A stretch of DNA of 64,000 bases, from NCBI GenBank assembly GCA_002786715.1, contig PCTW01000076.1:16879-80878 (forward strand), written 5' to 3'. This document shows, piece by piece, positions 12,661 to 21,230 of this stretch. Source of the stretch: Bdellovibrio sp. CG22_combo_CG10-13_8_21_14_all_39_27 (lineage in GTDB: Bacteria > Bdellovibrionota > Bacteriovoracia > Bacteriovoracales > Bacteriovoracaceae). Position 1 is the stretch's first letter. Every line of letters starts with the position of its first letter. The notes beneath the pieces were generated by a model. The model searched no databases and was not told the DNA's origin. It worked only from the letters and a program-made list of their open reading frames with translations. Position numbers and translations under genes: made by a program.

Positions 12661-15600
12661 GTGCATAAATCGACTCTCGCTCTCTATAGCGTTTTGATCG
12701 CATTGCTCGTCGGCTGCGTGGCCGGAGAAGTTGGAGAAAAAAAAGTTCTTCCTGGCGTAGTCGCGCTTTCACTTAGTTCAATCTCTCCTAGCGCGGGTAA
12801 TCCCACAGGTGGCACGAGTGTCACTCTTACGGGATCAGGTTTTCAAAGTTCAATGGCCATCATGATTGGTGGTGCTCCCTGTACGATTACAAGTTCATCT
12901 GCAAGCTCAGCAACATGTACGACAGCAGGACATTCAATCGGCACAGTCGATGTTTTTGTTATTAGATCCGATGGTGATAATGACACTTTAACTAATGGCT
13001 ACACTTATCAAAATGCACCAACACTCACATCAGTCACTCCTAACTTAGGAACAAATACAGGCTCAACCGGAATTGCATTGACCGGTACTGGATTTCTAAG
13101 CGGAGCCACCGTAACTGTTGGCAGCTTGCCATGCTCTGGCGTCACTGTCGTAGGACCAACTAGTATTACTTGTACAATTCCAAGTTGTGGAGCTTCATGT
13201 CCCTACGCCAATGCCGTAGTCAACGTCGCTGTAACAAACTCGGATGGCCAAGCTTCAGGAACACAAACATACACTTTTGCCGATACACCAATCATTAGTT
13301 CTGTAACAAAAAATGCAGGGGCCCTTGCCGGCGGTGGAACAATTGTCATCGCGGGAAATTATTTCAAGCCCGTTGGAGTGACTCCTCCAACTGTAGATAT
13401 TGGTGGGGCAGCTTGTGTTGTCAATGCCGGACTTACGACTAATACGAGTATTACTTGTGTGACATCGGTAAACACGGCAGGAGCTAAAACGGTTTCTGTG
13501 ACGAATGAAGTTTCACTGACAGGAACTCTCGCTTCAGGTTTTACTTATCAAGCCGCTCCTACAATTACTTCACTTTCTTTAAATGCAGGTAACCCAACTG
13601 GTGGCTATACAACAACAATAACTGGAACTAATTTTGATGTTGCAAATGGAGCAGTCATAAGTGTGGGCGGAACGGCCTGTACAACTTCTTCTGTTGTAAG
13701 TACAACATCTGCGACATGTCAGGTTCCAGCAGGAGCATTGGGTGCAACAACTCTTACTTTTGTAAACAACGATGCTAACTCACAGGCCGTTGCAGCTCCA
13801 CCAACTTTCACTTATCAAAATGCACCAACGCTTACCGAAATTCACGATAAAGTGCTATGTGATGCCAGCGGTACACCTTCTGCGTGTACTAACAAAGTAA
13901 GTGCAGGACCCCTCGCCGGAGGCAGACAAGTTTATCTCATCGGAACCGGTTTCGTATCAGGAGCGACAGTTACAATTAACGGTACTTCATGTGGAACTCT
14001 CACTGTTGATAGTGCGACACAAATTACTTGCACCACTCCTGCAAATCCTGCTGGAACCTATGATGTGGTTGTAACAAATGCTGACGGGCAAACTGTAACG
14101 CTCTCTTCTGCCTATCTCTACAGAGCAGCTCCAACCATTACCAGCTTTACTCCAAATGCAGGGGCTCTTGGTGGATTAACTTCAATGACAATAAACGGAA
14201 CAGGCTTTCTCGCAGGTGCTGTCGTAACTTTTGATATCGGTGGAACTCCTGCAGTATGCTCATCCCCTTCTATAACAAGTACACAAATTACTTGTGCAAC
14301 AGTTGCCCACGTGGCCGCTTCAGTAAATATCACTGTAACAAATACTGATAATCAATCAGCGACTTCAGCTACCAATTACACTTACCAAGGCCCTCCGGTA
14401 TTTACATCTCCAAGTCCTAATGGAGGTACAATTAATGGGTTCCAATTGCTTACGATAACAGGGAGTGGTTTCGATACAGTTAATGGTATGTCTATCTTAG
14501 TTGGTGGCAATACCTGTTCGAGTCCTACAGTTGTCAATCCAACAACGGTCACTTGTACGACACCGACTCATGCTTTAGGCACGGTTGATATTACACTCAC
14601 AAATCTCGATGGTGATTCACAAAGTGTTACGGCCACGAATGTCTACACTTATCAATCCCCACCTTCAATCTCTCAAATTTTTGATAAAGTTTTATGTGAT
14701 GCCAGTGGTGTTGTTCCCTCATGTACAGATAAGATCGCTTCAGAAAGCATCAATGGTGGCAATGTTGTTTATATCACTGGAAGCAATTTTTTAGCAGGAG
14801 CGACTGTAACGATTGGTGGTAATGCCTGTACTGCCCCAACTGTTGTTTCTTCAACTCTCATTACTTGTACGACTCCCGCTTCTGCGACAACTGGTGCTAA
14901 AACTTTGGTTGTCACAAATTATGATGCTCAAACATCTACAAAATTTAATGCCTACACATATCAATCACCACCAACGATAACTGCCATAACTCCTAACACT
15001 GGCTCAAGTGCAGGTTCAGGAACTATCGTTGTTCAGGGGACAAATTTTGATGTTGCCAATGGAGTAACCGTTACCGTTAATGGAAATCCTTGTTCTCCAA
15101 CATTTTCACTTACACCCACTTCAGTTAGCTGTATGACTCCAGCGATTGGTGGTGGAGCACTAGCGACTCCTTATGATGTAGTCCTCACTTTAAAAGATGG
15201 AGATGCTCAAGCGACCACCAGTGTCGGTTCATTTACCTATATAGCTGCGCCGACTGTCAGCAATATTTCGCCAAACGTAGGACCAACAACTGGTGGCCAG
15301 TCAGTAACCATTACGGGAACCGGATTTGATACTGCAAATGGGGCAACAGTAACCATTGCTGGAGCCACCTGCACTTCTCCTGTCGTCGTTAGTTCAACGA
15401 CAATTACCTGTACAACGGGTGTTAGCACTGCAGGTACTAATAATGTTGTTGTTACAAATACAGATGCCAACTTGCAATCAGGAACATTAGTTAGTGGATA
15501 CACTTATCAAATAAAACCTATTATCGCGAATATTGTACCAAGTTCAGGAGCCCTTGCGGGAGGTTCACTGGTTACAGTTAATGGGAGTGGTTTTGTCGAT

Positions 15601-18252
15601 AACACAATAACATCGATCTCTATCAATAGCTTACCTTGTGTCGTTCAAGCCGGAGTTACGTACACTCAGCTCACTTGTATCACGGGGGGACCAAATGCAG
15701 AGGGAACATATTCTGCTACCGTCACAAATTCAAATGATGGACAAAATTCTACAACGGCCAATGCCTTTACTTATTATGCTGCTCCTACAATTTCGACGAT
15801 TGCTCCAAGTTATGGACCAGTCACTGGATCTGGCCCATCATTTAGAATCTATGGAACCAAGTTTATCCAAATCGGAGCAACAGTTCCTATTATCCGTTTC
15901 GATCCAGGGGGAAGCCCGGTCGACTGCGCCACTGTAACGGTCATTGATTCTACTACATTAGAGTGTGCAAGTACTCCCGCGCATGCTGCAGGTTATGTTA
16001 CTGTTCGAGTTATCAATCCAGATGGAGATGCTCAGCAAGTAGATTTTCCTTTAGGGTTTAGCTTTTGGGCACAACCCACTGTGGCTTCTGTTGATATTCC
16101 CAATGGACCGGCAAGCGGTGGAACAAATATTACCATTACTGGAACAGGATTTGGTGGAGCGACAAGTGCAACAGTTGGTGGAGTTGCATGCACTAGTTTT
16201 GCCATCGTTGATGCGAACAATGTGACTTGTACGACTGGTAATAAAGGAAACACAACGACGATTGCTGCTTCAGATATTATTGTCTCAACGTTTGATGGCC
16301 AGTCAGGAACATTAAGCTCAGCTTTTACTTATAATCCTCCTCCGAGAATTGATACCGTTGCTAATACTGCGACTCCTACAGTTAGCGCAGGTCCTCTGGC
16401 CGGAGGAACAAATATTACAATTACTGGAGATTTCTTTGTCGCTGGAGCGACGGTTTCAGTCGGGGCAGTGACCTGTACAACGCCAGTTATCGCAGCAACA
16501 TCTATTACCTGTGATACAGGAATAAATACGGCAGGATTAAAAGATGTCGTCGTCACTAATCCCGATGGCCAATCATTTACATTGAGCAATTCGTTTACTT
16601 ATAGAGCAGCTCCAACCATTTCGGGTGTCGCTTTAAGTGCCGGGGCCCTTGGTGGTGGAACAACTATTACTTTAACGGGAACTGGATTTATTGCTAATGC
16701 AATCGTTGATATAGATCCTGCAGGAACATCTGCAAGTTGCGGTTCAGTTTCTGTTGTCAGTCCAACTTCAATTACATGTACGACCTCGGCCCATGCCGCT
16801 GGTACTTTTGATGTCAGAGTAACTAATGAAGAAGGACAAGCAGGAACACTTGCTAGTTCTTATACTTATCAAGCTGCTCCAACTGTCGGCTCACTTTCAG
16901 TTTCAAATGGTGCTTCTGGTGGTGGCACTGCCATGACTATAACGGGAACAGGATTTTTAACAGGTGCAACAGTTGACTTTGGTGGGTCTTCTTGTGGAAC
17001 AGTCGTCGTTGTATCGTTGACTTCTATTACATGTACGACTTCAACCCATGCAAACGGAGTCGTCACTGTCACCGTCACCAATGCTGATACGCAATCGGGA
17101 TCACTTGCGAGTTCATTTACTTATCAGGGAGCACCTACAATCTCGGGCGTCTCTCCTTCGGGTGGGGACATTGCCGGTGGCACATTGATTACGATTAGTG
17201 GAGACCAGTATTTTGCAGGAGCCTCAGTGACTCTTGATGTGGCAGGAACACCCGCTGCTTGTGGAGGAGTTACTGTTGTTAATATCAATACAATTACCTG
17301 TACTACTGTTGCCCACGCCGCTGGCCCAGTAAGCGTTCGTGTTCTCAATACAGATACACAAGCAGGAACTCTTGCCAATGGATTTACTTATCGACCTCCT
17401 CCGACAGTTTCTTTGATCTCTCCAACCGGAGGACCTACAGCAGGTGGAACGCCTGTGACGATTTCAGGGGCAAACTTTATTTCGGGTTCAACTGTAACAT
17501 TAGGTGGAGTGGCCTGTACTTCGCCGACTTTTGTAAGTGCGGCAACTCTTACTTGTACGAGTGGCGGCCCTGGAGCAGGACTAGGAGATGTTGTCGTAAC
17601 ATTACCTGATAATCAAACCGGAACTCTTTCAAATGGATTTACTTATCAAAATCCACCGACCGTAACTTCACTGGATATTATTACTGGTTCTACTTCAGGT
17701 GGTTTAATGATTACTTTGACGGGAACAGGATTTGTTACGGGGGCGAGTATCTCTTTAGGTGGCGTGGCCTGTACCAGTCCAACTTATGTCAATGCCACGA
17801 CTTATACATGTGTCACTCCAGCAAAAGCAGCTGGCACCTATAGTATTACTCTCACTAATGCTGATTCACAAAGTGCGACTCTGGGAAGTGCCTTTACCTA
17901 CGTTTCGATGGCACAACTCCAATGGCAACGTGGAACCGTTTCTCCTAACCCTCCTGACCCTGATACTTTTGGGCCAGCGGCCATTAATATCACACATACC
18001 TATACATTGAAAAACGTTGGTAATGCTGTCAGTAGCACAGTTACAGTTTCTATAGGTGGCACAAATGCTACAGGTTGGTTTAAAGGAACTGATACTTGTT
18101 CCTCTAGTGCTTTAGCTGCTGGAGCAAGTTGTACTGTTCAAGCAACATTCCTCGGAGGTGGTTTACCCACTGGTGCCTACACTGCAACTTTAGATGTTAC
18201 AGCAACTTCTGGAGGAAGTGACTCCAATACAATGAACGGGAGCGTTCCATGA
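12661..18252 (+). CDS. Giant surface lipoprotein with 19 IPT/TIG repeats
   Basis: 1863 residues starting at GTG behind GGAGG. The signal peptide ends in lipobox LLVGC, so Cys19 is lipidated. I count 19 tandem IPT/TIG immunoglobulin-like repeats of roughly 80-100 residues, each with the pattern P-x-x-G-x-x-x-GG-T-x-h-T-I-x-G-x-x-F, a central GG..C segment and a closing [FY]TY[QR] strand. Most repeats carry two Cys (as in ACTS...ITCTT), suggesting one disulfide per domain. The final about 110 residues differ: a CARDB/choice-of-anchor-D-like domain with SCTVQATF. Two repeats share an insert containing DKVLCDASG, a trace of block duplication. The role is probably surface adhesion or a stalk. It overlaps the next gene by 4 bp (ATGA). 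Confidence 0.92.
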   Translation: MHKSTLALYSVLIALLVGCVAGEVGEKKVLPGVVALSLSSISPSAGNPTGGTSVTLTGSGFQSSMAIMIGGAPCTITSSSASSATCTTAGHSIGTVDVFVIRSDGDNDTLTNGYTYQNAPTLTSVTPNLGTNTGSTGIALTGTGFLSGATVTVGSLPCSGVTVVGPTSITCTIPSCGASCPYANAVVNVAVTNSDGQASGTQTYTFADTPIISSVTKNAGALAGGGTIVIAGNYFKPVGVTPPTVDIGGAACVVNAGLTTNTSITCVTSVNTAGAKTVSVTNEVSLTGTLASGFTYQAAPTITSLSLNAGNPTGGYTTTITGTNFDVANGAVISVGGTACTTSSVVSTTSATCQVPAGALGATTLTFVNNDANSQAVAAPPTFTYQNAPTLTEIHDKVLCDASGTPSACTNKVSAGPLAGGRQVYLIGTGFVSGATVTINGTSCGTLTVDSATQITCTTPANPAGTYDVVVTNADGQTVTLSSAYLYRAAPTITSFTPNAGALGGLTSMTINGTGFLAGAVVTFDIGGTPAVCSSPSITSTQITCATVAHVAASVNITVTNTDNQSATSATNYTYQGPPVFTSPSPNGGTINGFQLLTITGSGFDTVNGMSILVGGNTCSSPTVVNPTTVTCTTPTHALGTVDITLTNLDGDSQSVTATNVYTYQSPPSISQIFDKVLCDASGVVPSCTDKIASESINGGNVVYITGSNFLAGATVTIGGNACTAPTVVSSTLITCTTPASATTGAKTLVVTNYDAQTSTKFNAYTYQSPPTITAITPNTGSSAGSGTIVVQGTNFDVANGVTVTVNGNPCSPTFSLTPTSVSCMTPAIGGGALATPYDVVLTLKDGDAQATTSVGSFTYIAAPTVSNISPNVGPTTGGQSVTITGTGFDTANGATVTIAGATCTSPVVVSSTTITCTTGVSTAGTNNVVVTNTDANLQSGTLVSGYTYQIKPIIANIVPSSGALAGGSLVTVNGSGFVDNTITSISINSLPCVVQAGVTYTQLTCITGGPNAEGTYSATVTNSNDGQNSTTANAFTYYAAPTISTIAPSYGPVTGSGPSFRIYGTKFIQIGATVPIIRFDPGGSPVDCATVTVIDSTTLECASTPAHAAGYVTVRVINPDGDAQQVDFPLGFSFWAQPTVASVDIPNGPASGGTNITITGTGFGGATSATVGGVACTSFAIVDANNVTCTTGNKGNTTTIAASDIIVSTFDGQSGTLSSAFTYNPPPRIDTVANTATPTVSAGPLAGGTNITITGDFFVAGATVSVGAVTCTTPVIAATSITCDTGINTAGLKDVVVTNPDGQSFTLSNSFTYRAAPTISGVALSAGALGGGTTITLTGTGFIANAIVDIDPAGTSASCGSVSVVSPTSITCTTSAHAAGTFDVRVTNEEGQAGTLASSYTYQAAPTVGSLSVSNGASGGGTAMTITGTGFLTGATVDFGGSSCGTVVVVSLTSITCTTSTHANGVVTVTVTNADTQSGSLASSFTYQGAPTISGVSPSGGDIAGGTLITISGDQYFAGASVTLDVAGTPAACGGVTVVNINTITCTTVAHAAGPVSVRVLNTDTQAGTLANGFTYRPPPTVSLISPTGGPTAGGTPVTISGANFISGSTVTLGGVACTSPTFVSAATLTCTSGGPGAGLGDVVVTLPDNQTGTLSNGFTYQNPPTVTSLDIITGSTSGGLMITLTGTGFVTGASISLGGVACTSPTYVNATTYTCVTPAKAAGTYSITLTNADSQSATLGSAFTYVSMAQLQWQRGTVSPNPPDPDTFGPAAINITHTYTLKNVGNAVSSTVTVSIGGTNATGWFKGTDTCSSSALAAGASCTVQATFLGGGLPTGAYTATLDVTATSGGSDSNTMNGSVP

Positions 18253-18958: not shown

Positions 18959-20032
18959 ATGAGTAATTGTCACATTCATCGTGAAGCTATCGATGCTGTT
19001 AAAAACTTTTCTCTTCCTCAAGAATTACCTTTTGGTAAAACGATAGCTCCCGTTATGGTTAAAGTTCATTACAACAAAGGTGAATGGAGTAAATCAGAAC
19101 TTCTTCCCTACTCTCCATTAACATTAGATCCAACGTGCAAAGTTCTTCATTATGCCCAAGAAATCTTTGAAGGAATGAAAGCTTATCGTGTTGAAGGACA
19201 AGGTCCGCTCTTATTTAGACCCGAAGAAAATTTACAACGCTTTAATATGTCGGCAAGAAGAATGGCGATGCCAGAAGTTCCTGAAGAAATTTTTATGGGA
19301 GCAGTTGAGGCCATCGTTGGTGCCTGCGCGCCAATAATTCCCCGTCGTAGTGGCGAGTCTCTTTATATTCGTCCTTTTATGTTTGCGAGTGAAAATGGTC
19401 TGGGAATAAAGCCCGCTGAACATTTTATTTTTCTCGTAGTTGCTTCACCTTCTGGCGCCTATTTTTCAGGCGGCAGTGTTCAAGTTCAAATCGAACGTGA
19501 AGCGATTCGTGCCTGTCCAGATGGTGTTGGTTTTGCCAAAACAGGTGGCAATTATGCCGCTTCCCTTCTTTCTATGATTGAAGCGAAAAAACAAGGTTAC
19601 GATCAAGTCTTGTGGTTAGATGCTCTTCACAAGAGAGATGTTGAAGAACTCTCAGGAATGAATTTCTTTGCTGTTTATAATAATCGCTTAGTAACACCAA
19701 AACTTACGTCAACTATTTTAAATGGGATCACTAGAAAATCTCTCATTCAATTGGCCCGTCATCAAGGCTTCCAAGTGGACGAAGAAACGATAAGTATTGA
19801 TCAAATCATTGCCGATATTCAATCTGGAAAAATTACTGAAGCTTTCGCTTGCGGAACTGCTGTGATCATAACCCCTATCTCTCATCTTGGAGAGAAAGAT
19901 GGAACTCGTTATGCCCTTCCACAAGCTGTTGGAGAGGTTTCGATGAAGCTTCGCAACGCTCTTCTCGATCTTCAAGAAGGACGTGCCCAAGATACATTTG
20001 AATGGGTAAAGAAAGTCGCCCCTTTGGCCTAA
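18959..20032 (+). CDS. ilvE: Branched-chain amino acid aminotransferase
   Basis: 357 residues, the length of class IV PLP aminotransferases of the bacterial BCAT II group. It transfers the amino group between Leu/Ile/Val and 2-oxoglutarate. Visible motifs are YAQEIFEGMKAYR near 65-77, LYIRPFMFASE, the PLP lysine in FAKTGGNYAAS (Lys194), ELSGMNFFAVYNN, and FACGTAVIITP near the C-terminus. Upstream GGGGAG gives a good ribosome-binding site. It appears monocistronic, about 65 bp after the previous gene. Confidence 0.95.
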   Translation: MSNCHIHREAIDAVKNFSLPQELPFGKTIAPVMVKVHYNKGEWSKSELLPYSPLTLDPTCKVLHYAQEIFEGMKAYRVEGQGPLLFRPEENLQRFNMSARRMAMPEVPEEIFMGAVEAIVGACAPIIPRRSGESLYIRPFMFASENGLGIKPAEHFIFLVVASPSGAYFSGGSVQVQIEREAIRACPDGVGFAKTGGNYAASLLSMIEAKKQGYDQVLWLDALHKRDVEELSGMNFFAVYNNRLVTPKLTSTILNGITRKSLIQLARHQGFQVDEETISIDQIIADIQSGKITEAFACGTAVIITPISHLGEKDGTRYALPQAVGEVSMKLRNALLDLQEGRAQDTFEWVKKVAPLA

Positions 20033-20146
20033 AGTAAATGAGATTCCTCAGGGTGCGACTGAACTAAAAAGCTCGAATATTACAATACCAGCGCAACTAT
20101 CCACTTCACAAACTCTCCTTTACACTAATATTCAACTCGTTCCTAA

Positions 20147-20168
20147 AAAATGTGACATGTCACATTTT
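20147..20168. promoter_or_regulatory. 22-bp perfect palindrome upstream of the ECF sigma gene
   Basis: Core TGTGACATGTCACA (20151-20164) flanked by AAAA and TTTT, all self-complementary. Half-sites TGTGA/TCACA are those of CRP but with a 4-bp spacer, the spacing of FNR-type sites. It lies 32 bp before the GTG start at 20201, so it is well placed as an operator for the sigma factor and its partner. The binding protein is unknown. Confidence 0.75.
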
Positions 20169-20200
20169 GGACTTGAGATTCGTATACCGGGTAATGAAGA

Positions 20201-20710
20201 GTGAAATCGGATCAAGAACTTATGATTGCTTATATTAGTGGAGACCAACAGGCCTTCTCAGAGCTATATACACGATACAAACCACGTGTTTACGGATACT
20301 TATCTCAAAAAGTAGCTCCTACAGAGCGAGATGATCTGTTCCAAAGTGTCTTCATGAAGCTTCATCATAAGAAGCACTTGTTTAAGCCGGAATATGCTTT
20401 TGCCCCTTGGTTCTTCACTTTGATTAAGCATGAAATAATTGATGTTGCCCGGAGAAATTCGAAGCGGACTACTGAGCCATTATTTGAAGAGCAACACTTT
20501 CAAGACGATCAAACGGGACAGTCCGATAGTGTTGAGAAAATTGAAAGTTTAAATCTCAATGAGCAAGACCAAAAGCTCCTCTACTTGAAGTTTGTTGAAG
20601 GTAAAGGATATCAGGAACTCGAATTAGAATTTTCAAGTAAAGCTGCAACTCTTCGAAAGAGAGTTAGCCGTTTGCTTGAAAAATTAAAATGGAGGGATTC
20701 ACATGAGTGA
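20201..20710 (+). CDS. ECF-family RNA polymerase sigma factor
   Basis: 169 residues, the usual size for a group IV sigma factor with only regions 2 and 4. Region 2: DQQAFSELYTRYKPRVYGYL, then DDLFQSVFMKLHH and PWFFTLIKHEIIDVARR. Region 4: LNEQDQKLLYLKFVEGKGYQEL followed by the helix-turn-helix AATLRKRVSRLLEKLK. Start GTG has AAGAG close upstream. The downstream membrane-protein gene overlaps it by 8 bp, the classic layout for a sigma factor and its anti-sigma regulator. The palindrome at 20147 lies just upstream. Subgroup not assigned. Confidence 0.92.
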   Translation: MKSDQELMIAYISGDQQAFSELYTRYKPRVYGYLSQKVAPTERDDLFQSVFMKLHHKKHLFKPEYAFAPWFFTLIKHEIIDVARRNSKRTTEPLFEEQHFQDDQTGQSDSVEKIESLNLNEQDQKLLYLKFVEGKGYQELELEFSSKAATLRKRVSRLLEKLKWRDSHE

Positions 20711-21230
20711 AAAGGAATTTATAAAATTCATGAAGGCCAATCAATCCCCATCTCAAAATTTAGATGAATTGGTGATCGCTCATCAGGGCAATCTTTTTGC
20801 CCAAGACAGAATTATTGTTTTTTCAAAAGTCGTTGCTATTCATGCTCTCGCAGGAACTGCAACATTGGCAGTATGTCCTCAGTTTGGCTGGAATCCTTTT
20901 GGAGCGAATCCACAAACTATGCATATCTTTATGGGCTATGGGATGTGGGCCTGTGGACTTTTTTGTGGTTCCCTCTTTATGGTTCTCGGGGCTTTTTTAA
21001 AGCTCGTCCTTTTGCAAAAATCCAGCGTGAGTCTTTATTACCGTAACGGTATAAAGAACTCTTTTATGCTTTCGAGTCTCTTTCTTTTTATGATGATGAC
21101 AGCTGGCGCGATGACCTCAAGTGATAATATCTTTTTAGGTTTTGTCTTTGCTCTTTTTTGGTGGTTAGGAGCTTTAATAGCGGAAACTCTCTCTTTTGGT
21201 GCTCAAAAGTTATTTCATCAAATTCAATAA
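20703..21230 (+). CDS. Four-helix membrane protein, putative anti-sigma or sensor partner
   Basis: 175 residues: a cytoplasmic N-terminal tail of about 35 residues (MSEKEFIKFMKANQSPS) then four predicted membrane helices (about 38-58, 73-104, 118-137, 145-165). The first two helices and the loop hold a striking set of His and Cys: His47, Cys58, His74, Cys84, Cys88, with CPQFGWNPFG in the loop. The gene overlaps the sigma gene by 8 bp, so a role in holding or releasing the sigma factor is likely. The His/Cys set could bind metal or heme or react with oxidants; this is inference. It is not a ZAS or RskA-type anti-sigma by motif. Confidence 0.75.
   Translation: MSEKEFIKFMKANQSPSQNLDELVIAHQGNLFAQDRIIVFSKVVAIHALAGTATLAVCPQFGWNPFGANPQTMHIFMGYGMWACGLFCGSLFMVLGAFLKLVLLQKSSVSLYYRNGIKNSFMLSSLFLFMMMTAGAMTSSDNIFLGFVFALFWWLGALIAETLSFGAQKLFHQIQ

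Follow-up and report, generated by a model that had tools for sequence, protein, structure and literature searches.

A predicted copper-responsive module of an ECF sigma factor and a four-helix membrane partner in Bdellovibrionota

To what signal does an ECF sigma factor respond when its gene overlaps one for a small, cysteine-bearing membrane protein, and what is the role of the perfect palindrome that precedes both? This question is raised by a locus in a 64,000-nucleotide stretch of a Bdellovibrio sp. genome (hereafter the window: bases 16879-80878 of contig C2 of the 4.08-Mb genome). The original prediction had described a perfect palindrome ahead of the sigma gene, an overlap between the sigma and membrane-protein genes, and the residues His47, Cys58, His74, Cys84 and Cys88 in the membrane protein. 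All of these are present as described, the palindrome spanning 22 bp and the overlap of the two open reading frames 8 bp (20703-20710; Table 1). Its proposal that the partner is an unusual anti-sigma factor that senses a metal is also our best reading: the conserved cysteines, the predicted regulon and the genomic neighbours point to copper. Very probably, the two genes encode a Cu(I)/Ag(I)-responsive module of an ECF sigma factor and its membrane anti-sigma factor. The partner most likely represents a new family, so far without annotation, of membrane anti-sigma factors that act as copper sensors. At the level of sequence comparison, the following are established: the pairing of the two genes, the invariant cysteines, the promoter, the dependence of this promoter on whether a genome has the family, and the copper-type nature of the predicted targets.

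Table 1. Features of the sigma/partner locus, in window coordinates
Feature	Position	Strand	Remarks
Perfect inverted repeat, AAAATGTGACA / TGTCACATTTT	20147-20168		22 bp; two abutting -35 elements plus A/T flanks
Left palindrome half, TGTGACA	20151-20157	-	-35 element on the minus strand
Right palindrome half, TGTCACA	20158-20164	+	-35 element of the predicted sigma-dependent autopromoter
-10 element, CGTA	20181-20184	+	16 bp past the -35 element
ECF sigma factor gene	20201-20710	+	169 aa; GTG start (start codon inferred)
Partner gene, four-helix membrane protein	20703-21230	+	175 aa; predicted anti-sigma factor and metal sensor
C58-P-Q60 codons	20874-20882	+	predicted periplasmic end of TM1
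C84-x3-C88 codons	20952-20966	+	predicted periplasmic start of TM2

The sigma factor and its promoter

ECF (group IV) sigma factors possess only regions 2 and 4 of sigma-70, are shorter than about 200 aa, and are recognized further by a bipartite promoter under their own control, whose -10 element is of the CGT type. The sigma protein of the window matches Sigma70_r2 in Pfam (3.9e-11) and, above the cut-off, the sigma70-ECF model TIGR02937 in NCBIfam (9.8e-22, 77 bits), while its match to Sigma70_r4_2 (0.0022) lies below the cut-off of that model. With 169 aa, regions 2 and 4 only, and a predicted TGTCACA-N16-CGTA promoter before the sigma gene in most loci, it is by its sequence an ECF (group IV) sigma factor. 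The protein contains no cysteine and no C-terminal extension, ending just past region 4.

A 22-bp palindrome would be expected by chance about 0.015 times per 64 kb (4^-11 per position). The genome search for further copies that had been suggested with the original prediction returned the 14-bp core only once in the 4.08 Mb. The right half forms a -35 element with a CGTA -10 element at the proper distance. The left half lacks its counterpart, with TTCA rather than TACG at 20131-20134, and the upstream gene, encoding an aminotransferase and ending at 20032, is co-oriented with the sigma gene; hence, the left half is probably vestigial, or else an extension that arose by chance. Of the two promoters, just the sigma-facing one is complete in the window.

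Across relatives, 93 non-redundant loci were compared: 55 have the word pair TCAC-N17-CGTA ahead of the sigma gene and 36 have its mirror, TACG-N17-GTGA; word pairs in shuffled sequence reach at most 11. In its full form, TGTCACA-N16-CGTA, the promoter fits at 10 or more of 11 positions in 73 of 104 loci, with a spacing of exactly 16 in 65 of these 73 good sites. The mirror copies point to divergent genes, often a divergent metal operon. In about ten distinct loci the two -35 elements lie 7 or 8 bp apart, i.e. they abut and therefore constitute a palindrome. In one of these settings (L062) the core is identical to that of the window, TGTGACATGTCACA, either side has a -10 element, and the divergent gene is present. 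Together, these sequence patterns strongly support recognition of TGTCACA-N16-CGTA by the sigma factor, and identify the palindrome as two divergent -35 elements of the pair's own sigma placed back to back. Bdellovibrio-type genomes of the genus g71 (L165-L172) retain the pair, though no good TGTCACA-N16-CGTA was found upstream; there the sigma factor may have another promoter specificity, or the genes may start elsewhere.

The palindrome had instead been proposed as a possible operator of a CRP/FNR-like or other dimeric regulator. A perfect 22-bp dyad with TGTGA/TCACA half-sites is indeed what such a regulator might bind; the half-sites, however, lie 4 bp apart, as against the 6 bp that separate those of CRP, and the core is found once in the genome. 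In relatives each half is paired with its own CGTA -10 element at 16 bp, and the halves lie anywhere from 7 to over 100 bp apart though the promoter itself is retained, so that the fixed dyad expected of a CRP/FNR-type operator is missing. This variable distance and the paired -10 elements lead us to reject the operator, which we regard as very improbable. Thus, of the palindrome that was to be sought in orthologous loci, the dyad as such is rarely kept, and its right half persists as the conserved promoter element.

A membrane protein family with conserved cysteines

The partner matched no Pfam or NCBIfam family, and neither did two other members that were checked. Among 59 related genomes, 24 yielded relatives in a search with the single sequence, and an alignment-based search recovered the family in 199 of 369 Bdellovibrionota genomes. 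Outside the phylum, a pattern scan built on a narrower alignment detected scattered members, gammaproteobacteria among them, in Desulfuromonadales, Desulfobulbaceae, Syntrophaceae, Desulfomicrobium, Sedimenticola and Colwellia. A single-protein scan of genome contigs with the partner gave no match, and a search queried with one member from outside the phylum turned up no plasmid copy. As is expected of an anti-sigma factor, the partner is coupled directly downstream of the sigma factor across genomes: of 119 loci, 112 have an ECF sigma gene immediately ahead of the partner gene, and in 93 the two overlap.

Among 111 distinct partner sequences C58, Q60 and C88 are invariant, as is W153. C84 is present in 99: all of these are from within the phylum, and all 12 sequences from outside it have F or Y at this position. 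The latter instead display a fixed three-histidine loop motif, typically H-N-x3-H-x2-H. The histidines of the original prediction are not fixed, position 47 being occupied by His in 50 sequences and by Gln in 44, and position 74 by His in 68; hence, of the His/Cys set whose conservation was in question, C58, C88 and, in the phylum, C84 are kept and the two histidines vary.

An AlphaFold2 model from an alignment of 37 members has four membrane helices (mean pLDDT 89), and a modelled His-type member shows the same four-helix plan (pLDDT 85). In the model, C58 is positioned just past TM1, with C84 and C88 in the first turns of TM2. The 15-residue loop 2, between helices 2 and 3, has 3.3 Lys plus Arg residues versus 0.7 in the longer, 23-residue loop 1 between helices 1 and 2, and both termini of the protein are also rich in positive charges. 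By the positive-inside rule, this charge distribution predicts an N-in/C-in topology, with both ends of the partner in the cytoplasm and C58, C84 and C88 facing the periplasm. A fold search of the PDB with the partner yielded no match with E < 0.001, and the protein has no large periplasmic domain that could be cut. Anti-sigma factors of the ZAS type (class I) are defined by a zinc-binding domain, typically with an H-x3-C-x2-C signature; the partner has neither this signature nor a Pfam match, and does not belong to this class.

Predicted targets and genomic neighbours

In the 199 genomes with the partner, TGTCACA-N16-CGTA occurs 1.88 times per genome versus 0.42 for a reversed control (kinship ignored); in the 170 genomes without it the corresponding figures are 0.43 and 0.34 (kinship likewise ignored). 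Thus, as counted in these sequences, the promoter exceeds its control frequency only where the partner is encoded. The genome of the window has six sites of the form GTCACA-N16-CGTA versus four for the control, three of the six being intergenic. These own-genome figures are weak when taken alone, and the strength of the promoter statistics comes from the cross-genome comparison.

The three intergenic sites precede: the sigma gene itself; a cusC-cusB-cusA operon followed by a cation diffusion facilitator (CDF) gene, on contig C70; and a small operon on contig C15. The C70 pump scores 876 bits against Escherichia coli CusA and 551 bits against ZneA, and it has all three of the methionines, 573, 623 and 672, that bind copper in CusA. 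The CDF gene behind it is DmeF-like (Co/Ni). The C15 operon encodes a secreted protein of 139 aa together with a Haem_bd-domain protein (PF14376). The former (L200:2829-3248, minus strand) lies directly behind a perfect promoter copy and contains GEHHEEK and CFKDCAEK stretches; it has no Pfam or NCBIfam match and no relative among the neighbours of the pair. In relatives, unlinked promoter sites are found ahead of CusCBA-type operons in at least six genomes. In one genome (G014) such unlinked sites precede two copper-type P-ATPases (CopA-type), one of them behind a CopZ-like gene, as well as a CsoR/RicR-like repressor gene accompanied by one for an RND pump, and a cupredoxin gene. At a further locus (L245) the sigma gene has as its divergent neighbour a gene for a Cys-rich metallothionein-like protein. 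Judged from their sequences, the predicted targets have a copper character.

The immediate neighbourhood was tallied over 119 loci, some near-duplicates included. Beside the pair are found: HMA proteins in 45 loci; CusA-type RND pumps in 33, with CusB-type proteins in 28 and TolC-type proteins in 27; Haem_bd proteins in 13; CsoR in nine; and multicopper oxidases in eight. For the HMA proteins the linkage was quantified in 30 genomes, where 18 of 56 domains are encoded no more than 6 kb from the pair versus 0.2 expected.

Several less familiar proteins recur at the same loci. A secreted protein of about 210 aa with an AHPV motif near its start is encoded in 31 of the 119 (e.g. L142:4720-5349, minus strand), mostly divergently from the sigma gene and in many loci behind a mirror copy of the promoter; it belongs to no Pfam family and is probably a copper-stress protein. 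A membrane protein of about 125 aa with a CCALPAL motif, likened to MerT/MerC, is found in 25 of the 119 (e.g. L123:7443-7817, plus strand), often adjoining an HMA protein, and has no Pfam or NCBIfam match. In Desulfuromonadales and Syntrophaceae a gene for a DUF6448 protein (PF20046) diverges from the sigma gene (L081:4470-5093, minus strand; related genes in L077 and L082), and this arrangement suggests a role of DUF6448 in metal stress. In the window itself, a 1863-aa lipoprotein-like protein with many IPT/TIG-like repeats is encoded a few kb upstream of the sigma gene (12661-18252, plus strand).

Proposed copper sensing and comparison with known systems

These elements can be assembled into a proposed mechanism. 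At rest, the partner would act as an anti-sigma factor whose cytoplasmic N-terminal helices bind the sigma factor and keep it at the membrane. Judging from conservation and topology, rising periplasmic Cu(I) would be bound by C58, C84 and C88, with Q60 nearby, at the mouth of TM1 and TM2. The binding of Cu(I) or Ag(I) would then shift the helices and free the sigma factor, which would proceed to TGTCACA-N16-CGTA promoters: those of its own operon, of the unlinked cusCBA operon on C70 and of the small C15 operon with the secreted protein. In the window the working element would be the right palindrome half with the CGTA at 20181, the left half being part of a divergent promoter that lacks its -10 element and its gene in this genome. 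Transcription of its own operon by the sigma factor would amount to positive autoregulation. That the partners form a stand-alone family of four-helix anti-sigma factors, binding Cu(I) at the periplasmic mouth and freeing the sigma factor by a helix shift without proteolysis, is more tentative, and we give it slightly less than even chances. If true, one small protein would replace a CusS-type kinase in much of Bdellovibrionota and in scattered other lineages.

The signal could also be of another kind. With the same sigma/anti-sigma module, the cysteines might form a redox switch for periplasmic oxidants or disulfide stress: a disulfide is conceivable from three invariant cysteines, and oxidant-responsive membrane anti-sigma factors with periplasmic cysteines exist, such as Brucella B0023/AbcS (PMC8315932). 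Yet the predicted targets are genes for copper export and binding, not for repair or catalase, and members from outside the phylum have F or Y in place of one cysteine and, in the loop, the histidine motif. Such replacement of a cysteine and gain of a histidine motif suit metal ligands better than a redox pair, and we consider a redox switch unlikely. A departure of a different sort is that the partner transports or senses a metal and is simply co-expressed with the sigma factor. It is polytopic, has a site-like set of cysteines and contains no known sigma-binding domain recognized by Pfam or NCBIfam. Against this, the ECF sigma gene is directly upstream in nearly all loci, mostly overlapping, no transport family is matched, and the architecture, four short helices plus a conserved N-terminal segment in the cytoplasm, is suited to a regulator; a co-expressed transporter thus has as little probability as the redox switch. 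Soft metals other than copper may also be sensed: some loci encode MerT-like proteins, and behind the C70 operon lies the DmeF-like gene. Light and heme, also entertained in the original prediction, found no support in any neighbour or residue: the Haem_bd protein, both a target on C15 and a neighbour of the pair, is an output and gives no evidence for heme as the signal.

Returning to the proposed copper-responsive anti-sigma factor, the closest functional parallel is the Caulobacter SigF-NrsF system (ECF16; DUF1109/NrsF, PF06532), in which an ECF sigma factor is paired with a polytopic inner-membrane anti-sigma factor whose conserved periplasmic residues C131 and C181 matter (PMC3511200), and whose regulon is copper-induced and needed for copper tolerance (PMC8224329). 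The two share an ECF sigma gene followed by one for a polytopic, established or predicted anti-sigma factor with periplasmic cysteines, and a copper regulon, which is a predicted one in the present case. However, NrsF has six helices and two cysteines, whereas the partner has four helices and the C-P-Q / C-x3-C set with three; the NrsF regulon comprises DUF692/DUF2282 (bufferin) and MsrPQ genes, as against CusCBA, CopA and CsoR here. The partner has no match to PF06532 in Pfam at E up to 1, and hhalign of its family against NrsF gave 11% over 22 columns (99.9% for a within-family positive control). True NrsF proteins are absent from the genome of the window and present separately elsewhere in the phylum. 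Hence, by these profile comparisons the partner is not a member of the NrsF/DUF1109 family, and the pair is functionally like SigF-NrsF and not detectably homologous to it.

Another copper-linked ECF sigma factor, CorE of Myxococcus xanthus, controls genes for copper ATPases and multicopper oxidases (PMC8999054, PMC10141476), and detects copper through a Cys-rich extension at its own C-terminus (PMC8999054). CorE operates without an anti-sigma factor; the sigma factor of the window has neither the extension with a CxC linker nor any cysteine, and is not CorE-like. The promoter nearly coincides with that of ECF41, TGTCACA-n16-CGTC (PMC3426412): the -35 elements are the same and the -10 elements are CGTC and CGTA. 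ECF41 proteins, however, have a fused C-terminal regulatory (SnoaL-like) domain and COE gene neighbours, neither of which is found here, and a sigma factor of 169 aa with no further domain falls outside that group. In its output, a CusCBA-type pump with the three CusA-site methionines, the system resembles E. coli CusRS/CusCFBA, which is controlled by a two-component system rather than by an ECF sigma factor with a predicted membrane anti-sigma factor.

With this assignment, widespread unannotated sigma/membrane-protein pairs gain a predicted function, signal and promoter code, and a copper-response regulon is predicted for a phylum that includes well-known bacterial predators. A study of Bdellovibrio reported two RpoE-like sigma genes without recognizable anti-sigma partners (PMC3464611); families like that of the partner may be part of the reason for such missing anti-sigma factors. 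A cysteine in some lineages gives way to a histidine motif in others, which provides a natural experiment in metal choice by a membrane protein, and the pair could be usable as a compact copper biosensor. The module has also multiplied locally: in one genome (G004, contig C30; L073:5225-7535) three partner and two sigma genes are packed into about 3 kb, a local duplication. A close relative of the window pair with the same promoter is found in the genome G081 (L243, contig C123), which has a second copy on contig C194.
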